Part shown: piece after piece, positions 40,455-64,000 of the stretch
Layout of the letters: the number at the start of each line of letters is the position of its first letter
How positions within the stretch are numbered: the first letter of the stretch is position 1
Origin: Reinekea forsetii
GTDB lineage: Bacteria > Pseudomonadota > Gammaproteobacteria > Pseudomonadales > Natronospirillaceae
Direction: 5' to 3'
Length of the DNA: 64,000 bases
Assembly (NCBI RefSeq): GCF_018860385.1
Contig: NZ_JAHKPH010000003.1
Location: forward strand, 139,585-203,584
Notes under the pieces: generated by a model
What the model saw: the letters and a program-made list of their open reading frames with translations, nothing else
What the model was told of the DNA's origin: nothing
The model's database searches: none
Made by a program: the position numbers and the translations under genes

Positions 40455-40491
40455 GGGAAAAAGAGAGGATTTAGGCTCTAATCAGAGCCTA
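40455..40491 (-). terminator. Terminator overlapping the arsR stop codon
   Basis: TAGGCTCT (40472-40479) pairs with AGAGCCTA (40484-40491) around AATC. The arsR stop codon lies in the right arm (40489-40491). On the minus strand a pyrimidine run with T5 follows. The T run is interrupted, so strength is uncertain. Confidence 0.55.
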
Positions 40492-40800
40492 TTTCGCGCA
40501 ATATAGGTTATAAAGTACGGAGATGATCGCTTCAGCTTGTGGGCTTGCTATAGAATAATAAACCGTTTGAGCCTCTTTGCGCACTTTCACCATCTTGTCA
40601 TTACGTAGACGAGCTAAGTGCTGCGATAAGGCCGATTGACTCAACGGGATGCGTTCATTTAATTCGCCAACGCATTTTTCACCTGAAATCAGGTTACATA
40701 ATATTAATAAACGGCTTTCATTACTGAGCGATTTCAATAACGCCGCCGCTTCAGACGCGTTTGATTCAAGCATTTCAATTGGTAAATCTAGCGTATCCAT
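40489..40800 (-). CDS. ArsR-family repressor, SqrR/BigR-like
   Basis: A 103-residue ArsR-type winged-helix repressor: SEAAALLKSLSNESRLLILC, the DNA-reading helix LSQSALSQHLARLRNDKMV, and the wing VRKEAQTVYYSI. It lacks the CVCDL metal site of arsenic-sensing ArsR. It has Cys35 and Cys101, 66 residues apart, the same distance as the persulfide/redox-sensing pair of SqrR (41/107) and BigR (42/108) as I remember them, plus an extra Cys43. So it probably senses reactive sulfur species or redox state. A dyad operator candidate lies upstream at 40858-40893. No sulfide-oxidation gene is adjacent. Confidence 0.88.
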   Translation of the reverse strand: MDTLDLPIEMLESNASEAAALLKSLSNESRLLILCNLISGEKCVGELNERIPLSQSALSQHLARLRNDKMVKVRKEAQTVYYSIASPQAEAIISVLYNLYCAK

Positions 40801-54712: not shown

Positions 54713-55485
54713 TAAGCCACCTCCATGTCACTGCTGCCCAAATAGGCTTCAATGACTTGCGGGTTCGCTTGCACATCGGCCGGAGCACCGGCTGCAATCT
54801 GCTTCCCGAAATTAAGCACAACGACTTGATCAGATATATCCATGACCATACCCATGTCATGCTCAACCAATATGATCGTAGTTCCCCATTGTTCCTGTAT
54901 ATCTAAAATAAAGCGGGCAATGTCTTCGGTTTCTTCACGGTTCATTCCAGCGACAGGTTCATCGAGCATGAGCAATTTCGGCTTCATCGCTAGCGCTCTA
55001 GCAAGTTCGACCCGTTTTTGTAAACCATACGGCAGCGCAGCAACAGGTGCTTTGCGAATATGGTCTAACTCCAGGAAATCGATGATGTCGCGCTCTATTT
55101 CTTCTCGAAAAGCTATTTCTTCACGTTGTGCTCGGCCGTAATACCAGCCACCACTGAATAATCCAGACTTCAACCGGGTATGGCCGCCGAGTTTTATGTT
55201 ATCGAGTACCGACATGCCCCGAAACAGAGCTAAGTTTTGGAAAGTACGAGACATGCCGCGCTTTGCACGGTGGTCTGGACGCTCGCGCGTGATGTCTTCA
55301 CCTTGGAAAAGAATTGCACCACTTTGCGGCTGATAAAAGCCCGATATTATATTGAATAAACTGGTTTTACCGGCGCCATTTGGTCCAATAATTGAAGTGA
55401 TTTCGCCCTCGCGAGCTGTAAAACTGAGGTCTACGAGTGCACGAATACCACCAAAACTCAAACTTGCGTTCGAAACGGTCAGCAT
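54712..55485 (-). CDS. HAAT-type ABC transporter ATPase, LivG-like
   Basis: A 257-residue ABC ATPase. Walker A GPNGAGKTS (about 34-42), signature LPYGLQKRVELARAL (about 155-169, with LPYG in place of LSGG as usual for LivG), Walker B LLMLDEPVAGMN, and switch VEHDMGMVMDISD. A 20-residue insertion after RTFQN..LFRGMSVLDNI is typical. ATG 55485 has a GGAG site. It is the first gene of the six-gene operon and lies about 53 nt after the predicted transcription start. Confidence 0.94.
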   Translation of the reverse strand: MLTVSNASLSFGGIRALVDLSFTAREGEITSIIGPNGAGKTSLFNIISGFYQPQSGAILFQGEDITRERPDHRAKRGMSRTFQNLALFRGMSVLDNIKLGGHTRLKSGLFSGGWYYGRAQREEIAFREEIERDIIDFLELDHIRKAPVAALPYGLQKRVELARALAMKPKLLMLDEPVAGMNREETEDIARFILDIQEQWGTTIILVEHDMGMVMDISDQVVVLNFGKQIAAGAPADVQANPQVIEAYLGSSDMEVA

Positions 55486-55514
55486 TAGTTATTACGCTCC
55501 GTAAAAGCTGTTCA

Positions 55515-55574
55515 TTGACAGCCGTTGTTTTTATTATTTCAGTCATACTAAACATAGTTGAGGTAGGCTGTCAA
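55515..55574. repeat. Perfect 9-bp inverted repeat flanking the livG promoter
   Basis: TTGACAGCC (55515-55523) recurs inverted as GGCTGTCAA (55566-55574), 42 bp apart. The right copy covers the -35 box of the livG promoter; the left copy lies in the transcribed leader about +15 to +23. This is a plausible pair of half-sites for a regulator acting by looping or for two dimers. Confidence 0.55.
55545..55574 (-). promoter_or_regulatory. Sigma-70 promoter of the liv-type operon
   Basis: Minus strand: -35 TTGACA (55574-55569, perfect consensus), 18-bp spacer and -10 TAGTAT (55550-55545). Transcription would start near 55538, leaving a leader of about 53 nt before livG. Confidence 0.6.
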
Positions 55575-55663
55575 AAGAAATGACTCTGCGTCATTTAAGA
55601 CTTTAGTGGTGATAAAAACGATCTCGTTAGAATTATAATTTTTTCGAATTGCGCGCAACGCTC

Positions 55664-56089
55664 TTAGTCTATTAGCCTCCAAAGCTGTTCACGCTCTTGA
55701 TTGGTTAACTCATAGAGATTTAAAAAGGCCGGCCATCCGTTGTAAATAAAAAAAACAGAATTAAATACCTTTTTGGGCTTTGAAATATCTATTAGATTAT
55801 AAACTTTACGACCCGATAGCATTTCGCTAAAAATGAGAAAATTTTCATCGAATTGAATTAACGGGTAGCTATACAACAAATGCAAATGCCTCAGTATAAC
55901 AAACCACATATAGACGAGCACAATTAGGATTGTTAGGGGAAATAAAGCCACTCCATTGTTTATAAGCATATCTATTCCAACATATAATAGGAGCGTCGAT
56001 ATAGGCAATCCTATGATTACAACCAGCAAGAAAATTGGAACGGCTATTCTGTTTAAACTTTTTGAACGACCTAGCTCTACTAAAGGCAT
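55664..56089 (-). CDS. Hypothetical two-helix membrane protein
   Basis: A 141-residue protein with two close hydrophobic segments (about 16-38 and 47-68), then a cytosolic beta-rich domain (YPLIQFDENFLIFSEML, KVYNLIDISKPKKV) ending in LTNQEREQLWRLID. The helix pair followed by a compact beta domain recalls PH-like membrane proteins, but I recognise no family. It stands alone between the liv operon and the glycerate kinase gene, on the minus strand. Confidence 0.65.
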   Translation of the reverse strand: MPLVELGRSKSLNRIAVPIFLLVVIIGLPISTLLLYVGIDMLINNGVALFPLTILIVLVYMWFVILRHLHLLYSYPLIQFDENFLIFSEMLSGRKVYNLIDISKPKKVFNSVFFIYNGWPAFLNLYELTNQEREQLWRLID

Positions 56090-56269
56090 TCTTACTCCTG
56101 ATTCTGACTAATATTCCATGTAACCGATCGGCTCAAATCCAAGCGACACTGAGTAAATATTGCTGAATACGGCCTAGACTGCAAGTTAATTTGTATAGAA
56201 TACCGCTAGCTTGCTTTAAAGTGTTAAAACCGTCATATTTCTATGCTGAGCCTTTTTGAAACCGACCTC

Positions 56270-57406
56270 ATGAAAATAGTGATCGCGCCAGATTCTTACA
56301 AAGAAAGCTTAACGGCTTATGAAGTAGCAAAAACCATTCACCAGGCTTTTTTGCAACACCTCCCTGATGCTGAATACCACTTAGGGCCAATGGCCGACGG
56401 CGGTGAAGGCACAGCTTCATTACTGGCTGAAGCCTGCGGCGGAGAAATGATCACTATCATGGTACAAAACCCACTAGGCGAATCGGTTGAAGCTCAATAC
56501 GGCTTATTTGGCGATACGGCGGTTATTGAGATGGCTCAAGCCAGTGGCTTACACCTTGTAAAACCTTCACAGCGCAACCCAGACATAACCTGCAGTTATG
56601 GCACAGGTGAGCTCATTGCTCATGCATTAGATCAAGACGTTTCTAAGGTCATTGTAGGTTTAGGCGGTAGCGCGACTAACGATGCTGGACTTGGCATGCT
56701 CATGGCGCTTGGGGCTAAGTTTTTTGATAAGCAAGGGGATGCTTTAAAGCGTGGCGGCGCATCACTGTCAAAATTGGCCTCGATTGATACCACCAATCTT
56801 CATCCAAAGATAAAAAATGTCAGCTGGCAAATTGCTTGCGACGTCGACAACCCTCTCGTAGGACCTAACGGGGCAAGCGCTATTTTTGGACCACAAAAAG
56901 GTGCCACCTCAAAGCAAGTATCACATTTAGACGATGCCCTAAAACACTTTGCTACGAAAATAGAACAACATATCGGCATAAACGTAAGCGATACTCCTGG
57001 CGCAGGTGCAGCGGGCGGATTAGGTGCAGCATTTTTAGCTTTTATGAAAGGTCAACTTAAGCCAGGCATTGATATCGTTGCTGACACGTTAAAATTATCT
57101 GAGGCCTGCCTTGATGCCAATATAGTCATCACCGGCGAAGGAAGAATGGATGGTCAAAGCCTATCTGGAAAAACACCGGTAGGTGTTGCTCGAATAGCAA
57201 AAGCGGCCAACGCCAAACAAGTTTTAGCCATTGTGGGTAGCATTGAAGAAGGATACGAAAAAGTTTACTTACATAATATTGATGTAATTTTTAATTGCAT
57301 ACCCAAACTAGAACCGCTAGACAGAGTCCTAAAAAATGGTGCCCGAAACTTAACGATAACGTCTGATTCGATTGCGCGATTAATTAAGGGCATTATTGCG
57401 GGGTAA
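56270..57406 (+). CDS. Glycerate kinase
   Basis: A 378-residue type I glycerate kinase (GarK/GlxK family) forming 2-phosphoglycerate (or 3-phosphoglycerate) from D-glycerate. It starts MKIVIAPDSYKESLTAYEVA, the family start, at ATG 56270; an upstream ATG (56243) adds nine residues without a ribosome site. Marks are GPMADGGEGTA (about 46-56), GLGGSATNDAGLGML (about 137-151), CDVDNPLVGPNGA and TGEGRMDGQSLSGKTP. Its last 27 bp overlap the end of the convergent arsJ gene. No glyoxylate or tartronate genes are adjacent. Confidence 0.94.
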   Translation: MKIVIAPDSYKESLTAYEVAKTIHQAFLQHLPDAEYHLGPMADGGEGTASLLAEACGGEMITIMVQNPLGESVEAQYGLFGDTAVIEMAQASGLHLVKPSQRNPDITCSYGTGELIAHALDQDVSKVIVGLGGSATNDAGLGMLMALGAKFFDKQGDALKRGGASLSKLASIDTTNLHPKIKNVSWQIACDVDNPLVGPNGASAIFGPQKGATSKQVSHLDDALKHFATKIEQHIGINVSDTPGAGAAGGLGAAFLAFMKGQLKPGIDIVADTLKLSEACLDANIVITGEGRMDGQSLSGKTPVGVARIAKAANAKQVLAIVGSIEEGYEKVYLHNIDVIFNCIPKLEPLDRVLKNGARNLTITSDSIARLIKGIIAG

Positions 57407-58600
57407 TGCGATAGACAGCAGTGTGGCTATGGCTACAAAACCCGAAGAAAACCACAAGCATACTATTAAGCCATAATCTTGGTATAGCCAACCCGAAAGC
57501 ACGGTACCTAAAAGTCGGCCCATGGCGTTTGCCATGTAGTAGAAGCCAACGTCTAAAGACACGCCCTCTTCACTGGCATAGCTCACTATCAAATAACTGT
57601 GCAGTGAAGAGTTTATAGCGAATATAGCGCCAAATATTAGTAGGCCAATAATGATTGCGGCCTTGTCGTGCCATTCCAACATTAAAGTTATAGCAATCAT
57701 TGCAGGTATTACGCTCAACAATAAGGCCCAGGTTAGCGCGTGTTGGCCATCGGAGTTTTGCCCTTTGGCGGACCCTGTTATTTTCGGTGCAATGGTTTGC
57801 ACAAACCCATAGCCAATAACCCAAAGTGCTAAAAAACCGCCTACCCAAGAATGATTCCATCCAAACTGGCTAGAGAGGTAAACGGGCAGTGCAACAACAA
57901 ACCAAACATCACGCGCACCAAATAAAAACAATCGTGCGGCTGAAAGCACGTTTACGGCTTGGCTTTTCGAGAAAAGTTCTGTGAATTTGGGTTTGGTTTT
58001 TGCTTTGCCGATATCTTTCTTTAACTTAATCAGGCTCAGTACCCAAACCAACGCTAACAGCACCACCATGATCCCTATTGCGTTTCGGAACCCAAACGCC
58101 GCTAACAAAGTGCCACCCATAAAAAAACCAATGCCTTTCAGGGCATTTTTAGAACCAGTTAATATCGCTATCCATTTAAATAATTGGCCTTCGGCATCGC
58201 TAGGCACGAGCATTTTAATGGCACTTTTTGCGCTCATTTTGTTTAAGTCTTTGGCAATACCCGATAGCGCTTGCGCGGCCATGACCCAAGGTATAATTAG
58301 CAGGTTAACGGGCACGAGTAACATGGCTAAAGCCACTATTTGCAAAAATAGGCCAATGTTCATGGTTTTATTTAACCCTAAACGGGCGCCTAACCAACCG
58401 CCTACTAAATTGGTGATTACGCCAAACACTTCGTAAAACACAAACAACATGGCGATATCGAATGGGCTGTAGCCTAATCCGTAAAAATACAGCACCACTA
58501 GCATGCGTAGTGCGCCATCGGTCAGGGTAAACGCCCAATAGTTACCGGTGATCAAAATGTATTGGCGCAGCGATGCAGGCAGATTAGCAAGCCCATTCAT
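57380..58600 (-). CDS. arsJ: Organoarsenical efflux MFS transporter ArsJ
   Basis: A 406-residue major-facilitator permease. The N-terminus LRQYILITGNYWAFTLTDGA and FVFYEVFGVITNLVGGWLGA (about 53-72), with AQALSGIAKDLNKMSAKSAI (about 114-133), are the ArsJ pattern. ArsJ exports 1-arseno-3-phosphoglycerate made by the adjacent GAPDH, giving arsenate resistance without an arsenite pump. It starts 3 bp after the gapdh stop, so the two are coupled, and converges on glycerate kinase. No arsR, arsB, acr3 or arsC is in the window. Confidence 0.93.
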   Translation of the reverse strand: MNGLANLPASLRQYILITGNYWAFTLTDGALRMLVVLYFYGLGYSPFDIAMLFVFYEVFGVITNLVGGWLGARLGLNKTMNIGLFLQIVALAMLLVPVNLLIIPWVMAAQALSGIAKDLNKMSAKSAIKMLVPSDAEGQLFKWIAILTGSKNALKGIGFFMGGTLLAAFGFRNAIGIMVVLLALVWVLSLIKLKKDIGKAKTKPKFTELFSKSQAVNVLSAARLFLFGARDVWFVVALPVYLSSQFGWNHSWVGGFLALWVIGYGFVQTIAPKITGSAKGQNSDGQHALTWALLLSVIPAMIAITLMLEWHDKAAIIIGLLIFGAIFAINSSLHSYLIVSYASEEGVSLDVGFYYMANAMGRLLGTVLSGWLYQDYGLIVCLWFSSGFVAIATLLSIALPRNNALN

Positions 58601-58603
58601 TTG

Positions 58604-59617
58604 CTATGAGTCCTTATCGGCTAAGCCAATCTTTCGCATCAACTCAGCTACGCGGTTAGCGTAACCCCACTCGTTGTCATACCAGGCATAAATTTTTACT
58701 TGGGTGCCATTAACGACCATGGTTGATAACGCATCCACAATGCTAGAGCGAGGATCAGTTTTATAATCAATTGACACTAAGGGGCGTTCTTCATAACCGA
58801 GAATGTCTTTTAATTCGCCTTCAGCGGCCTCTTTGAGTAACTGATTCACTTCTTCTGCTGTCACCGCTCGGCTTACTTCGAATACGCAATCAGTTAATGA
58901 GGCATTCGTTAAAGGCACTCGAACCGCATGGCCGTTTAATTTACCTTTTAGCTCAGGGAAGATATGAGTGATGGCCGTTGCAGACCCGGTTGTGGTTGGT
59001 ATTAAACTGGTGCCGCAAGATCGTGCTCTGCGCAAATCACTGTGCGGCGCATCTATGATCGTTTGAGTATTTGTGATGTTGTGAATGGTGGTCATTGAGC
59101 CATGCTTAATGCCAATTTTTTCATGAATCACTTTAACAACAGGAGCCAAGCAATTGGTGGTACATGAAGCGGCGGTCACTATCGAGTGTTGGGTTTTATC
59201 GTACAGATGATCATTCACCCCCATCACCACATTGAGCACACCTTCTTCTTTTACCGGCGCGGTCACGAGAACGCGTTTTACGCCTTGGTCTAAATAAGCT
59301 TGCAGCAAAGCTTTGGTTTTCATTTTACCACTAGCGTCGATGACCACATCACAGTCGGACCAGTCGGTTTCAGCTATGGTTTTATGTTGACTGCAGCGAA
59401 TAGTATGTTTATGGAGGGCCATGTTATTGCCTTGTGCTGTGGCGTCATAAGCGCAACGGCCATGCACCGAATCAAAGGTGAGTAAATGAGCCAGTGTTTC
59501 AGCGTTACCAGCTGGATCATTTATTTGTACGAACTCTACATCATCCCAGTCTATTGCAGCTCGCAGTGCTAAGCGTCCCATGCGGCCAAACCCATTAATG
59601 CCTACTTTAATTGTCAT
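58604..59617 (-). CDS. ArsJ-associated glyceraldehyde-3-phosphate dehydrogenase
   Basis: A 337-residue GAPDH paralogue that in arsJ operons uses arsenate in place of phosphate to make the unstable 1-arseno-3-phosphoglycerate exported by ArsJ. It has the Rossmann start [15 protein letters not shown], catalytic Cys152 in AASCTTNC and His179 in [11 protein letters not shown]. The [21 protein letters not shown] stretch differs from housekeeping GAPDH (usually YTNDQNLLD) and matches the ArsJ-linked branch as I recall. It has an AAGGTGAG ribosome site and is preceded by a Pho-box promoter. Confidence 0.93.
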
Positions 59618-59640
59618 CTGTTGCTCACCTTAAATTATTA

Positions 59641-59674
59641 ATAATATTTCAAACTTATGACCGTTTGATGACAA
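59641..59674 (-). promoter_or_regulatory. Predicted Pho box and promoter of gapdh-arsJ
   Basis: Minus strand: the 18-bp TTGTCATCAAACGGTCAT (59674-59657) is two PhoB half-sites, TTGTCAT and CGGTCAT, 11 bp apart start to start, each 6 of 7 to CTGTCAT. After exactly 10 bp comes -10 TATTAT (59646-59641). This is the E. coli phoA promoter layout (box, 10 bp, -10) with no separate -35 box. Transcript start near 59634, about 17 nt before the gapdh ATG. Confidence 0.7.
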
Positions 59675-59814
59675 TTTTATACCAACTGGCTGGGCATCGC
59701 ACCGTATCGAATCATCTAAACTTATACAGAAATGTTCATTTTGACTTGATAGGTTATATGGCAGAATCGATGCTGTAGATGTTTATCACACACCTGTTTA
59801 CGATAGGAGCACAC

Positions 59815-61086
59815 ATGAAATTAGAGTCAATTGCTTTACACGAAGGGTATACCTCTGAAGAGACAACAAAATCTGCAGCGGTTCCTATTTACCAAACCAC
59901 TTCCTACACTTTCGATGACACTCAGCACGGCGCAGATCTATTTGATTTGAAAGTAGCCGGTAATATTTATACTCGTATCATGAACCCAACAACCGATGTG
60001 CTAGAAAAGCGAATTGCCGCAATGGAAGGTGGTATCGGTGCAGTAGCTGTGTCTTCTGGCATGGCAGCCATTACTTACGCGATCCAGTGTATTTGTGAAG
60101 CGGGTGATAACATTATAAGTACGAGCCAGCTTTATGGGGGTACGTACAACCTGTTTGCTCATGCCTTCCCAAGACAAGGTATCGAAACTCGCATGATTTC
60201 TCATGATGATTTCGATGGCTTTGAAAACGCCATTGACGAAAAAACAAAAGCTATTTTCTGTGAATCTATCGGTAATCCTGCGGGCAACATTGTTGATATT
60301 GTTCGTTTGTCAGAAATAGCTAAAAAGCACGGCATCCCTTTAATCGTTGATAATACCGTTGCGACTCCATACTTGTGCCGCCCCTTTGAATTAGGTGCCG
60401 ATATTGTTGTGCACTCACTCACCAAATACATTGGCGGCCACGGTACCTCTATTGGTGGTGCCATTGTAGACTCGGGCAAATTTGACTGGGCTAAACACAA
60501 AGAACGCTTCCCTGTTTTAAATGAACCAGACCCTGCATATCATGGCGTTGTATACACTGAGGCCTTAGGCGAAGCAGCTTATATTGGCCGTTGCCGAGTA
60601 GGTCCATTGCGTAACACGGGTGCCGCTATTTCGCCCATGAACTCTTTCCAAATTCTTCAAGGTTTAGAAACGCTTGGATTGCGCATGGATCGCCATTGCG
60701 AAAACGCTGAGAAGCTTGCCGATTACCTACAAAAGCACGAAAAAGTTGAGTGGGTAAATTACGCAGCACTTCCTAATAGTCCGTTCAATGCAGCATGCAA
60801 AAAAATAACCTCGGGCAAAGCTTCTGGTGTTTTAAGTTTTGGCATAAAAGGCGGTATTGAAGCCGGCATTAAGTTCATTGATGCGTTACAGATGATCTTA
60901 CGCTTGGTAAACATCGGTGATGCAAAATCTCTGGCCTGCCATCCTGCTTCGACCACACACCGACAGTTAAATGAAAAAGAGCTCGCGGCAGCAGGAGTAA
61001 GCACAGACTTAGTCAGAATCTCTGTAGGCATTGAACACATAGACGACATAATTGCCGATGTGAGCCAAGCACTAGAGAAAGCTTAA
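59815..61086 (+). CDS. metY: O-acetylhomoserine aminocarboxypropyltransferase (MetY)
   Basis: A 423-residue PLP enzyme of the Cys/Met-metabolism family that makes homocysteine from O-acetylhomoserine and sulfide. ATG 59815 is preferred over ATG 59779 because an AGGAG site lies just before it. The PLP lysine is K204 in VVHSLTKYIGGHG, with YTRIMNPTTDVLEKRIAAME (about 52-71) and SSGMAAITYA. The 60-residue insertion with YHGVVYTEALGEAAYIG is the MetY mark distinguishing it from MetB/MetZ. It diverges from gapdh-arsJ. I see no SAM riboswitch upstream. Confidence 0.94.
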   Translation: MKLESIALHEGYTSEETTKSAAVPIYQTTSYTFDDTQHGADLFDLKVAGNIYTRIMNPTTDVLEKRIAAMEGGIGAVAVSSGMAAITYAIQCICEAGDNIISTSQLYGGTYNLFAHAFPRQGIETRMISHDDFDGFENAIDEKTKAIFCESIGNPAGNIVDIVRLSEIAKKHGIPLIVDNTVATPYLCRPFELGADIVVHSLTKYIGGHGTSIGGAIVDSGKFDWAKHKERFPVLNEPDPAYHGVVYTEALGEAAYIGRCRVGPLRNTGAAISPMNSFQILQGLETLGLRMDRHCENAEKLADYLQKHEKVEWVNYAALPNSPFNAACKKITSGKASGVLSFGIKGGIEAGIKFIDALQMILRLVNIGDAKSLACHPASTTHRQLNEKELAAAGVSTDLVRISVGIEHIDDIIADVSQALEKA

Positions 61087-61123
61087 TTTATTACCCGTTA
61101 ATGTGTTAACTTAGCGTGATTAT

Positions 61124-61165
61124 AAATAGTTAAACTGAGTGAAATCGGTTTAACTATTTTTTTTT
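61124..61165 (+). terminator. Terminator of metY
   Basis: A perfect 12-bp stem, AAATAGTTAAAC (61124-61135) with GTTTAACTATTT (61148-61159), 12-nt loop, followed by T through 61165. It isolates metY from the S66 peptidase gene. Confidence 0.88.
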
Positions 61166-61208
61166 AGAAAAACCGACTGAATTTGCAACAAAACTAAGGA
61201 GAGTGCGT

Positions 61209-62207
61209 GTGTTATTCCCGACCCCATTAAAGCCTGGCGACAGTATTGGTTTCTTTACCCCATCTTCACCTGCTACGGTATTTGCACCTAATCGTTTTCA
61301 ACGGGCAAAAGATTATTTAATCGGTAAAGGGTATAAGCTAGTTGAGGGCAGTTTAACGGGGAAGTCAGATTTCTATCGTTCAGGTTCAATACAAGAGCGT
61401 GCCGAAGAACTAAACGGCTTAATTCGTGATCCAAAAGTACGCTGCATAATGTCGACGATTGGCGGCAGCAATAGTAATGCATTGCTCCCTTATATTGATT
61501 ACGAAGCGCTGCGAAAAGACCCAAAGATAATTATTGGCTATTCCGATGTTACTGCCATTTTATTGGGTATTTATGCCCAAACAGGTCTAGTTACATTTTA
61601 TGGCCCTGCTCTGGTAGCGTCGTTTGGTGAATACCCGCCTTTAGTAGACGAAACCTTTCAATCGTTTATTGAACTTCTAGCAGCGAATTCAGACCATTAC
61701 GAATACAAAATACCAACTGCTTGGACGGATAAAAAAATTGACTGGGAAAATCAGACTTCAGCAAAGCCAGTGTACCCAAATAAATGGGGGTTCAATGGCT
61801 CAGGAAAAGTAACGGGCCGCATCATAGGAGGTAACTTAAACACCATGGCTGGAATCTGGGGAAGCAAATATATGCCCGAGATCCAAGCAGGCGACATTCT
61901 GTTAATTGAAGATTCCTTGAAGAGTATTGAGAACGTAGAACGTTCGTTTGCACACTTAAAAGCTTGCGGCATATTCGACCGCATTTCTGCAATTGTACTA
62001 GGCAAGCATGAACTCTTCGATGATAAAGGCTCAAATCGCACGCCTTACGACGTACTCTTAGAAGTACTTAATGACCAACCTATGCCCATTTTAAATGGCT
62101 TTGACAGCTGCCATACACACCCTATGTTAGTAACCCCTTTAGGTGTGCAATGCACGATAGATTTTGATGAAGATAGAATATCTTTGGTAAGCCCTTGGTT
62201 GTCTTAA
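61209..62207 (+). CDS. S66 family peptidase (LD-carboxypeptidase/MccF-like)
   Basis: A 332-residue serine peptidase of family S66, which includes LD-carboxypeptidase LdcA (peptidoglycan recycling) and the microcin C self-immunity protein MccF. GTG 61209 is chosen because AAGGAG (61196-61201) lies 7 bp before it; an in-frame GTG at 61203 is too close. The nucleophile elbow is IIGYSDVTAIL (about 110-120), with later EDSLKSIENVERSF carrying the Glu and HTHPMLVTPLG the His. The length and SSPATVFAPNRFQRAKDYL start are more like MccF than LdcA. No microcin genes are nearby. Confidence 0.88.
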   Translation: MLFPTPLKPGDSIGFFTPSSPATVFAPNRFQRAKDYLIGKGYKLVEGSLTGKSDFYRSGSIQERAEELNGLIRDPKVRCIMSTIGGSNSNALLPYIDYEALRKDPKIIIGYSDVTAILLGIYAQTGLVTFYGPALVASFGEYPPLVDETFQSFIELLAANSDHYEYKIPTAWTDKKIDWENQTSAKPVYPNKWGFNGSGKVTGRIIGGNLNTMAGIWGSKYMPEIQAGDILLIEDSLKSIENVERSFAHLKACGIFDRISAIVLGKHELFDDKGSNRTPYDVLLEVLNDQPMPILNGFDSCHTHPMLVTPLGVQCTIDFDEDRISLVSPWLS

Positions 62208-62224
62208 AGTCAATAAGTAACTAA

Positions 62225-62830
62225 TTAACCAAAATGCTCTTTAATGAACGCGAGGGTATCGGTGGTAGTACAATGATGTACGCTGTCGACGCCCATACTC
62301 TGCGCGGCAATTACATTTGCTTCGCTGTCGTCAATAAAAACGGCCTGCTCGATTGGCGTGTCAACTATGCTCAAGGTTTTTGCAAAAAACTCTAGGTTCG
62401 GTTTAGCAACCCCAATATCAGAAGAATTGATGACTACGCCAAAGGCATTCTTAAGTTTTGCTGTTACTAAATCAGAGGGTAAGCGGCTAGTGGCGTTGGT
62501 TACAAGTACTATTTTTGCGCTGGGAGCTCGGGCTTTTATTTGCGCTAAAAAGTCATGATCTATTTTAAACTTTGCATTGCTCCAAAAAGCAACGAGTTGC
62601 TTTGCTATTTCTTGGTTGTGCAATTGGCTTAACTTTAATTCAACGTGGCTTTGCCATTCTTCATGGCTAACCTGCCCAGTGATAGCAGGCACCAATAAGT
62701 TGCTGTCAAAAGCAACCGAAAACAAGGTTCCCGGCTCTATTCCTAATGCTTCTTCTTTTAGTTTTATGTCATCGTTAAACCAGTGGCGAATCACTCCATC
62801 AAAATCAATTAAAATAGTGTTTTTCGCCAT
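62225..62830 (-). CDS. HAD-superfamily phosphatase
   Basis: A 201-residue haloacid-dehalogenase-type hydrolase. Motif I is DFDGV with nucleophile Asp9 and Asp11 (ILIDFDGVIRH), motif II VLVTNATS (about 109-116), motif III Lys in VAKPNLEFF (about 139-147), motif IV FIDDSEANV (about 165-173). It has a helical cap (about 15-85) typical of HAD-IA. Substrate unknown. It lies 5 bp after the dnaE stop on the same strand, so it is probably co-transcribed with dnaE. Confidence 0.88.
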   Translation of the reverse strand: MAKNTILIDFDGVIRHWFNDDIKLKEEALGIEPGTLFSVAFDSNLLVPAITGQVSHEEWQSHVELKLSQLHNQEIAKQLVAFWSNAKFKIDHDFLAQIKARAPSAKIVLVTNATSRLPSDLVTAKLKNAFGVVINSSDIGVAKPNLEFFAKTLSIVDTPIEQAVFIDDSEANVIAAQSMGVDSVHHCTTTDTLAFIKEHFG

Positions 62831-62835
62831 AACGC

Positions 62836-64000
62836 CTAGTACCTAAACTTATAACCGGACTCACTGAAATCTTGCTTTAACTGATGCAAGACTTCATCTT
62901 GTAAGTGAATGCGATGTTTTTCGTTTAATTTAACCAAACCGTTCGAGGTTTCATTTTGGTAGTTGACCCAAACTGAACATCCTTGATCTTCAGGTAAATC
63001 ACTTTTAACCAAAGTTTTTAGTTTTTTCAGAAACTCCGGAGCTTTGTCGGCCGTTGTTTTAAATTCGATACCTTTAATGAGGGCTTGCCGTGCATCCACC
63101 AATGTATAAACGCGTTGCGCTCGAATTCTTGGCCGCTCGTTGTAATCATCCCAGCCGAGTTCTGCTTCTACGACCACTACGGTATCGGGTACCAGCACGT
63201 CTTTGAACTGCGCATACAACTCACCGAATAAAGTCATTTCAACACGGCCAGTACGGTCGTCTAGCGTAACAATACCCATTGTATCGCCTTTTTGGGTTTG
63301 CCGTGTTCGCACACCCATCACAAGTCCGGCAACTGTTTTGATATTGCCACGGCGAGCACGTTTAAGTTCTTCGGCCGAGCCATCTAGCTCACCTAACCTG
63401 AGTGATACGACCTGCTTAACTTCATCCTCAAACTCATCGATCGGGTGGCCGGTTAAATATAAGCCTAAGGTTTCTTTCTCGCCAGCTAAGCGAACTTTCA
63501 ACGGAGCATCTTGAACTTTTAAGTAAGGCTCATAGACATCGGCTTCAACTTCGGCTTGAATTTCTCCGAATAAATCCATCATGCCTGCCGCTGCGTTGGC
63601 GGCGCTTTGATCGGCCGTTTTTATGGCATCTGCCATGGCGGCGAGCATGACGGATCGGTTAGGTCCGATATTATCGAGCGCACCGGCTTTAATTAGGGCT
63701 TCAATAGCGCGTTTATTTACTTTTTTGCTGTCTATACGCTGACAAAAATCGAATATATCGGTAAACGGTTCACCACTATTGCGGGCGGCAACAATGGCTT
63801 CCACCGGACCTTCGCCTACGCCTTTAATCGCCCCTAAGCCATAAATTATTTGGTCGTTCTCGTTAACCGTAAAATAATAAGCGCCAGCATTAACATCAGG
63901 AGGCAACACATCAATATTCATTTCTCGGCAATCTTCAATAAAGATCACCACCTTTTCAGTGTTTTGCAATTCCGAAGACATGGTGGCCGCTAAGAACGCG
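62836..64000 (-). CDS. dnaE: DNA polymerase III subunit alpha, C-terminal part
   Basis: The last 388 codons of dnaE; the gene runs off the right edge and is open to the last base (AFLAATMSSELQNTEKVV at the edge). It is the replicative polymerase catalytic subunit. Visible here: part of the fingers/beta-binding region with IYGLGAIKGVGEGPVEAIV, the helix-hairpin-helix section FDFCQRIDSKKVNKRAIEAL, ETLGLYLTGHPIDEFEDEV, and the C-terminal OB-fold KTVAGLVMGVRTRQTQKGDT near the end, then the tau-binding tail. Nothing suggests it is broken. The ATG at 63981 is internal, not the start. Confidence 0.97.
   Translation of the reverse strand, partial: AFLAATMSSELQNTEKVVIFIEDCREMNIDVLPPDVNAGAYYFTVNENDQIIYGLGAIKGVGEGPVEAIVAARNSGEPFTDIFDFCQRIDSKKVNKRAIEALIKAGALDNIGPNRSVMLAAMADAIKTADQSAANAAAGMMDLFGEIQAEVEADVYEPYLKVQDAPLKVRLAGEKETLGLYLTGHPIDEFEDEVKQVVSLRLGELDGSAEELKRARRGNIKTVAGLVMGVRTRQTQKGDTMGIVTLDDRTGRVEMTLFGELYAQFKDVLVPDTVVVVEAELGWDDYNERPRIRAQRVYTLVDARQALIKGIEFKTTADKAPEFLKKLKTLVKSDLPEDQGCSVWVNYQNETSNGLVKLNEKHRIHLQDEVLHQLKQDFSESGYKFRY

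Follow-up and report, generated by a model that had tools for sequence, protein, structure and literature searches.

A probable Pho box in front of the arsenate-export genes gapdh and arsJ of Reinekea forsetii

Arsenate and phosphate share an entrance into the cell, so exposure to arsenate is greatest in cells that lack phosphate. One way out is offered by a glyceraldehyde-3-phosphate dehydrogenase (GAPDH) together with the permease ArsJ: GAPDH forms 1-arseno-3-phosphoglycerate and ArsJ exports it, a mechanism restated in PMC5930303. In the var operon of Vibrio cholerae (arsR-varG-varH-arsJ) one promoter, upstream of arsR, is repressed by ArsR and induced by arsenate (PMC9601151). Here we ask what controls this pair in Reinekea forsetii. 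The initial annotation of a stretch of 64,000 nucleotides of its genome (called the window throughout) had proposed that PhoB, the regulator of phosphate starvation, takes this role.

The genes concerned are listed below in window coordinates.

58604..59617, minus strand: gapdh, ArsJ-associated glyceraldehyde-3-phosphate dehydrogenase, 337 aa; NF033735 573.9 bits (cut-off 450), PRK08955 661 (cut-off 563)
57380..58600, minus strand: arsJ, organoarsenical efflux MFS permease, 406 aa; NF033734 625.8 bits (cut-off 400)
59815-61086, divergent to gapdh: O-acetylhomoserine sulfhydrylase gene, sharing a 197-bp intergenic region with gapdh
56243-57406, convergent to arsJ: glycerate kinase gene

The first two names, given originally from the letters alone, are borne out by the curated models NF033735 and NF033734. 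With gapdh first and arsJ next, 3 bp apart, and with both proteins above curated cut-offs, the two genes are predicted to encode a GAPDH-ArsJ pair, and the ArsJ match is the only one in the genome. There is no pst gene adjoining gapdh-arsJ. At its other end arsJ overlaps the 3' end of the glycerate kinase gene by 27 bp (57380-57406). A role of this kinase in recycling the exported carbon was considered and rejected: a relative of it was found in none of the 80 listed gapdh-arsJ loci, 78 of which have at least 2 kb downstream (the other 140 loci mostly carry too little downstream sequence), so we regard the neighbourhood as a coincidence. The kinase gene has no upstream PhoB-type site among the best of the window.

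In front of gapdh the following elements are found.

59679..59685, minus strand: weak third half-site TTGGTAT, upstream in the same 11-bp phase, absent from the initial annotation
59657..59674, minus strand: core of the putative PhoB box, with direct half-sites TTGTCAT (59674-59668) and CGGTCAT (59663-59657), spacer CAAA and an 11-bp period
59641..59646, minus strand: -10 hexamer TATTAT, 10 bp after the box
59624..59631, minus strand: likely ribosome-binding site of gapdh, AAGGTGAG, read from the sequence

Re-reading of the minus strand gave exactly the layout that had been described before: TTGTCAT, CAAA, CGGTCAT, 10 bp and TATTAT. The 10 bp that separate the box from the -10 hexamer are AAGTTTGAAA (59656-59647, minus strand). 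From the box to the gapdh start there are 39 bp, and from TATTAT to the gapdh ATG (59617) 23 bp. Each half-site agrees with CTGTCAT in six of seven positions; in the second one, a G stands at a position where about 88% of the training half-sites have T, which counts against a PhoB site. We take this layout to resemble that of the phoA promoter of Escherichia coli. A simple scan for sigma-70 promoters in 57300-59850 gave two matches (shuffle mean 6.2) and none at the gapdh promoter, as expected for a promoter where no -35 is present. No RNA family reached its gathering score in 56000-62300.

The genome encodes what such a promoter would need. PhoB (TIGR02154, 354.5 bits, cut-off 296.2) and PhoR (TIGR02966, 372.8 bits, cut-off 334.2) are both present, and so are a PstS-family protein (TIGR02136, below its cut-off), PstC and PhoX. 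In the 3.42 Mb of the genome (21 contigs) the pattern YTGTCAYN6GTCAY occurs at seven sites, against two for the reversed control; it was written after the phoB, pstS, phoX and arsJ sites were known and is therefore partly fitted. The seven sites are those before phoB, pstS, phoX and gapdh-arsJ, one intergenic site (C3:207328) and two inside genes, presumably an SdhD-like reading frame and, in antisense, an MraZ-like one. Only the first four have a hexamer exactly 10 bp after the box that matches TATAAT in at least four of six positions: TTTAAT for phoB, TAGGAT for pstS, TAATAT for phoX and TATTAT for gapdh-arsJ. The intergenic site, TTGTCATTAAAGTGTCAT at C3:207328-207345, is a strong PhoB-type site behind a response-regulator gene, with no -10 at ten bases; we take the reading frame after it to be Spy/CpxP-like. 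The proposal of a PhoB-type promoter thus stands as a prediction, with the same layout before phoB, pstS and phoX and with PhoB and PhoR encoded, and we consider it probable that gapdh-arsJ belongs to the Pho regulon under the control of PhoB.

What, then, of the usual arsenic sensor? No ArsR match lies in window positions 55001-64000, and the arrangement of an ars or var operon, with arsR in or beside the operon, is not seen. The earlier statement that no ArsR is present holds for this neighbourhood. It does not hold for the window as a whole, which contains one gene of the family about 19 kb from the box:

40489-40800, minus strand: ArsR/SmtB-family gene, closest to the sulfite sensor BigR, below the BigR cut-off and above the HTH_metalloreg cut-off

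Genome-wide there is no match to Acr3 (TIGR00832) and none to ArsB (PF02040); of the families of arsenical exporters that were tested, only ArsJ is represented. One ArsC scores above its cut-off (TIGR00014, 142.1, cut-off 106.05), and there is in addition one ArsC-family reductase (PRK10853).

To place the locus among its relatives we collected gapdh-arsJ loci widely. An ArsJ match is present in 81 of 194 whole genomes of relatives (the present one included). Of these 81 genomes 75 entered the survey, the present one among them, and so did 66 of 71 new ones. Of 221 loci, 23 lacked a gapdh start ahead of arsJ, through a different gene order or a cut contig, and three were duplicates; 195 remained. 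Sites were scored by a half-site matrix trained on 17 pstS sites of relatives, with the present genome excluded and with a background for each region; a 22-position matrix that included the spacers had been dropped for its odd top matches, such as the one at -250 in locus L338. At p<=0.01 a box precedes gapdh in 21 of 195 loci in the sense orientation and in 3 of 195 in antisense. Upstream of other genes in the same loci the frequency is 15 of 719 (Fisher 8e-7 against 21 of 195), and this control holds some true Pho sites, since three of the 15 are divergent genes of Vibrio loci, two of them PstS-like. From 75 genomes of the same phylum, 40 spread across families were taken as well. In a second set of 50 further loci, made up of 11 from Gammaproteobacteria with short flanks and 39 from outside the class (10 of 60 were dropped for want of a gapdh start or of room), the box is found six times in sense and twice in antisense.

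In the three Vibrio loci the divergent gene (L069:668-1708 and L080:715-1737, minus strand, and its similarly placed counterpart in L084) lies near arsR-gapdh-arsJ and is itself preceded by a strong Pho box, CTGTCACATNATTGTCAT. In the two that were scanned, this gene is of the PBP_like_2 type (PstS-like): another tie of arsenate export to phosphate uptake.

Close to home the picture is mixed. Among the 80 relatives in the matches listed, 79 have a readable upstream region, and within the 327 bp that precede gapdh none of these 79 (ArsJ 66-74% identical) has a site with at most two mismatches. Five genomes of the same genus with an ArsJ gene were compared: two of them carry the box, and the other three have no site with at most two mismatches. 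The two boxed ones carry three tandem half-sites, TTGTCATCTACTTGTCATAGAGGTGTCAT (G004), and the box CTGACATATTTTTGTCAT (G005), and neither has an ArsR match in the locus. Two others (G001 and G003) have ArsR upstream and no box, while the fifth (G002) has neither and shows a gene similar to dual-specificity phosphatases upstream. Conservation of the site, which had been proposed as a check, is accordingly not found among the 79 listed relatives and is found in two of five same-genus genomes and in 21 of 195 loci (p<=0.01).

The statement in the initial annotation that arsJ operons are usually accompanied by an ArsR gene agrees with the survey: 144 of 195 loci have an ArsR match. These calls come from an HMM built from 67 reading frames of the surveyed loci, not from a curated model. 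The upstream flank reaches 2 kb or more in 182 of the 195 loci, every boxed one among them, but the downstream flank reaches 2 kb in 77 only, so that a more distant ArsR would be missed. ArsR is absent from 16 of the 21 boxed loci and from 35 of the 174 others (Fisher 4.7e-7, kinship ignored). Counted as independent pairs on the ArsJ tree, the link goes the expected way in 6.0 pairs against 0.3 (median p 0.0625), and on the GAPDH tree, where 187 rows were kept, in 4.7 against 1.2 (median p 0.375). It is not replicated in the 50 further loci, where ArsR is absent from three of six boxed loci and from 17 of 44 others (Fisher 0.67). Because the link weakens with phylogeny and fails in the further loci, we do not claim as a rule that the box replaces ArsR. 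Two of the boxed loci without ArsR lie beside other arsenic-type genes, an ArsP-like permease (L319) and ArsA (L174).

Five of the 21 boxed loci do contain an ArsR gene; in three of these (L186, L278 and L279) it is the next gene upstream of gapdh, and the box falls between the two. Boxes thus occur both with and without an ArsR neighbour, so a PhoB switch in place of ArsR fits the present genome but not all. The mixed loci speak in favour of dual control, where PhoB activates gapdh-arsJ and an ArsR-family repressor encoded elsewhere represses it as long as there is no arsenic. With seven HTH_5 matches the genome has candidates for such a repressor. However, the three that were examined are the BigR-like protein of the window (40489-40800), a generic ArsR/SmtB protein and a MarR_EPS protein, and no arsenic genes are found among the reading frames viewed around the latter two; the other four matches lie in larger open frames. 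The generic ArsR/SmtB gene adjoins two reading frames that we take to be AHSA1-like. We consider dual control unlikely in Reinekea.

It could also be that the box is a chance motif in an A+T-rich intergenic region and that the operon is constitutive or controlled in some other way. Most gapdh-arsJ relatives lack a box, and by mismatches the site is not exceptional: CTGTCATN4CTGTCAT with at most three mismatches occurs at 208 sites in the genome, against 145 for the reversed pattern, and the gapdh-arsJ box is one of 19 with two mismatches, some of them inside genes; none has fewer. Since 19 sites tie, the mismatch count alone is weak and fails to single out this box, and plain mismatch ranking was dropped as too coarse. 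The genome-wide rank, on which the initial annotation had wished its site to be judged, is therefore high by the strict pattern (one of seven) and middling by mismatch count. By the half-site matrix, in contrast, the box is the top site of the window on both strands, with 17.7 bits against 16.0 for the next, and dinucleotide shuffling of the 200 bp upstream of gapdh did not reach its score in any of 300 rounds (p=0.003, the floor). A chance motif would also have to share by accident the exact 10-bp spacing to the -10 that is common to phoB, pstS and phoX, and it would not explain a recurrence well over the antisense and other-gene controls.

The spacing to the -10 speaks against chance in the other loci as well. 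Across the 21 boxed promoters, agreement with TATAAT, which played no part in picking the sites, peaks exactly 10 bp after the box, with a mean of 3.43 of 6 against 1.74 at random offsets; none of 20000 draws is as high, and the mean is 3.35 without the promoter of the window. For comparison, the match at 10 bp is 1.85 for the 168 best sites with p>0.05 and 4.22 for the pstS promoters of relatives, 18 in number. The six boxed promoters from the second set reach 3.17 at 10 bp but 3.50 at 7 bp. The peak is not wholly independent of the box, because an in-phase third half-site ends with a T there; L283 and L192 have a strong third half-site. Taken together, we find a chance origin of the box quite improbable.

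Finally, that the box serves the divergent O-acetylhomoserine sulfhydrylase gene, with which gapdh shares its 197-bp intergenic region, is hardly credible: the repeats, the -10 and the distance to the start codon fit gapdh, the box is reversed and 140 bp away from the other start, and a relative of that gene is found in none of the 220 other loci, 20 of them boxed (tblastn 1e-15, in stretches that mostly extend 2-3 kb upstream).

If gapdh-arsJ does belong to the Pho regulon, how did it come to do so? The ArsJ tree requires at least 17 changes of the box state and the GAPDH tree 14, so if all 21 calls are right the box would have been gained or lost repeatedly. In the genus itself, the ArsJ proteins of the two boxed relatives are only 58-60% identical to that of the window, and in the tree each has the other as its closest neighbour. 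Their cassettes lie at other chromosomal places, one of them (G005) behind a gene for a 651-aa protein and the other (G004) behind a gene that we take to be carboxynorspermidine-decarboxylase-like. Because these two differ in place and in ArsJ lineage, the box is not simply inherited with one cassette. Outside the Gammaproteobacteria, four of the six boxed loci of the second set (L378, L381, L384 and L385) come from a single family (f246), in which four of the eight loci examined (nine were fetched) have a box and four do not. Its boxes before gapdh-arsJ read TGACAT or TGTCAT, five bases and TGACAT, followed by a similar stretch; they could be the PhoB box of that group or the site of another regulator. 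As a tentative proposal, to which we give somewhat less than even weight, arsenate detoxification may have been rewired repeatedly from ArsR to PhoB: cassettes of separate lineages and at separate places would each have gained a PhoB promoter, often losing ArsR, and the phosphate exported would be recoverable by the co-regulated PhoX and Pst.

Published systems offer partial parallels. The var operon of V. cholerae has in common with Reinekea a GAPDH and ArsJ pair for arsenate resistance, in Reinekea as predicted from the sequence; Reinekea differs in having no neighbouring arsR, nothing between gapdh and arsJ, and a PhoB-type promoter. A precedent for the control of an arsenic gene by PhoB is found in another gammaproteobacterium, Halomonas sp. 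HAL1, where PhoB binds a Pho box at the arsenite oxidase genes aioBA, as tested by binding and with mutants (PMC4563254). In contrast to gapdh-arsJ, aioBA oxidises arsenite, and the HAL1 box lies on the antisense strand between -21 and -3 relative to the start codon, while the Reinekea site is predicted from sequence. In Halomonas GFAJ-1 the arsenic island holds pst together with mfs1-mfs2-gapdh (PMC5930303). Here too an ArsJ-GAPDH pair is tied to phosphate genes, but the tie is one of gene neighbourhood, with no Pho box reported in the available part of that paper, and Reinekea has no adjacent pst.

In cyanobacteria a GAPDH and MFS pair is likewise found among phosphate-related genes. Of three comparisons under P limitation in Nodularia, two show a rise of the ArsJ-associated GAPDH (log2 +1.57 and +2.41, the third 0.09) and one a rise of arsJ (1.20); the authors state that most arsenate-related genes were without a strong response and that a conserved P-box was not found (PMC9846622). 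The Nodularia cluster includes an ArsR gene (PMC3610870). The P-acquisition genes of Prochlorococcus HLII include gap1, mfs and arsR (PMC10504305), the MFS protein not being named ArsJ in the accessible text of that paper. The literature that we searched, mostly without subscription papers, does not mention a Pho box in front of arsJ.

The course of events under PhoB control can be sketched as follows. When phosphate is scarce, PhoR would phosphorylate PhoB, and we infer that PhoB-P then binds the tandem half-sites, takes the place of a -35 and recruits RNA polymerase to TATTAT, as it would at phoB, pstS and phoX. GAPDH and ArsJ would be made together with Pst and PhoX, that is, the outlet alongside the high-affinity phosphate importer. 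Arsenate entering by Pst would be turned into 1-arseno-3-phosphoglycerate by GAPDH and exported by ArsJ. Each molecule exported costs the cell one phosphate group, which is odd for a starvation gene and counts against Pho control; the phosphate might be regained outside from 3-phosphoglycerate by PhoX and Pst.

With a Pho switch present, no arsenic-sensor gene adjoining and similar switches elsewhere, detoxification may precede the sensing of arsenate. If so, one regulator would switch on entrance and exit together, which would make a clear example of anticipatory control. The same gene pair exists in ArsR-wired and in apparently PhoB-wired copies, which lend themselves to a natural comparison. 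Reinekea is probably marine, and PhoB control of gapdh-arsJ can be tested directly in cultured marine Gammaproteobacteria. If it is true, arsenic-resistance transcripts in phosphate-poor water need not report exposure to arsenic.
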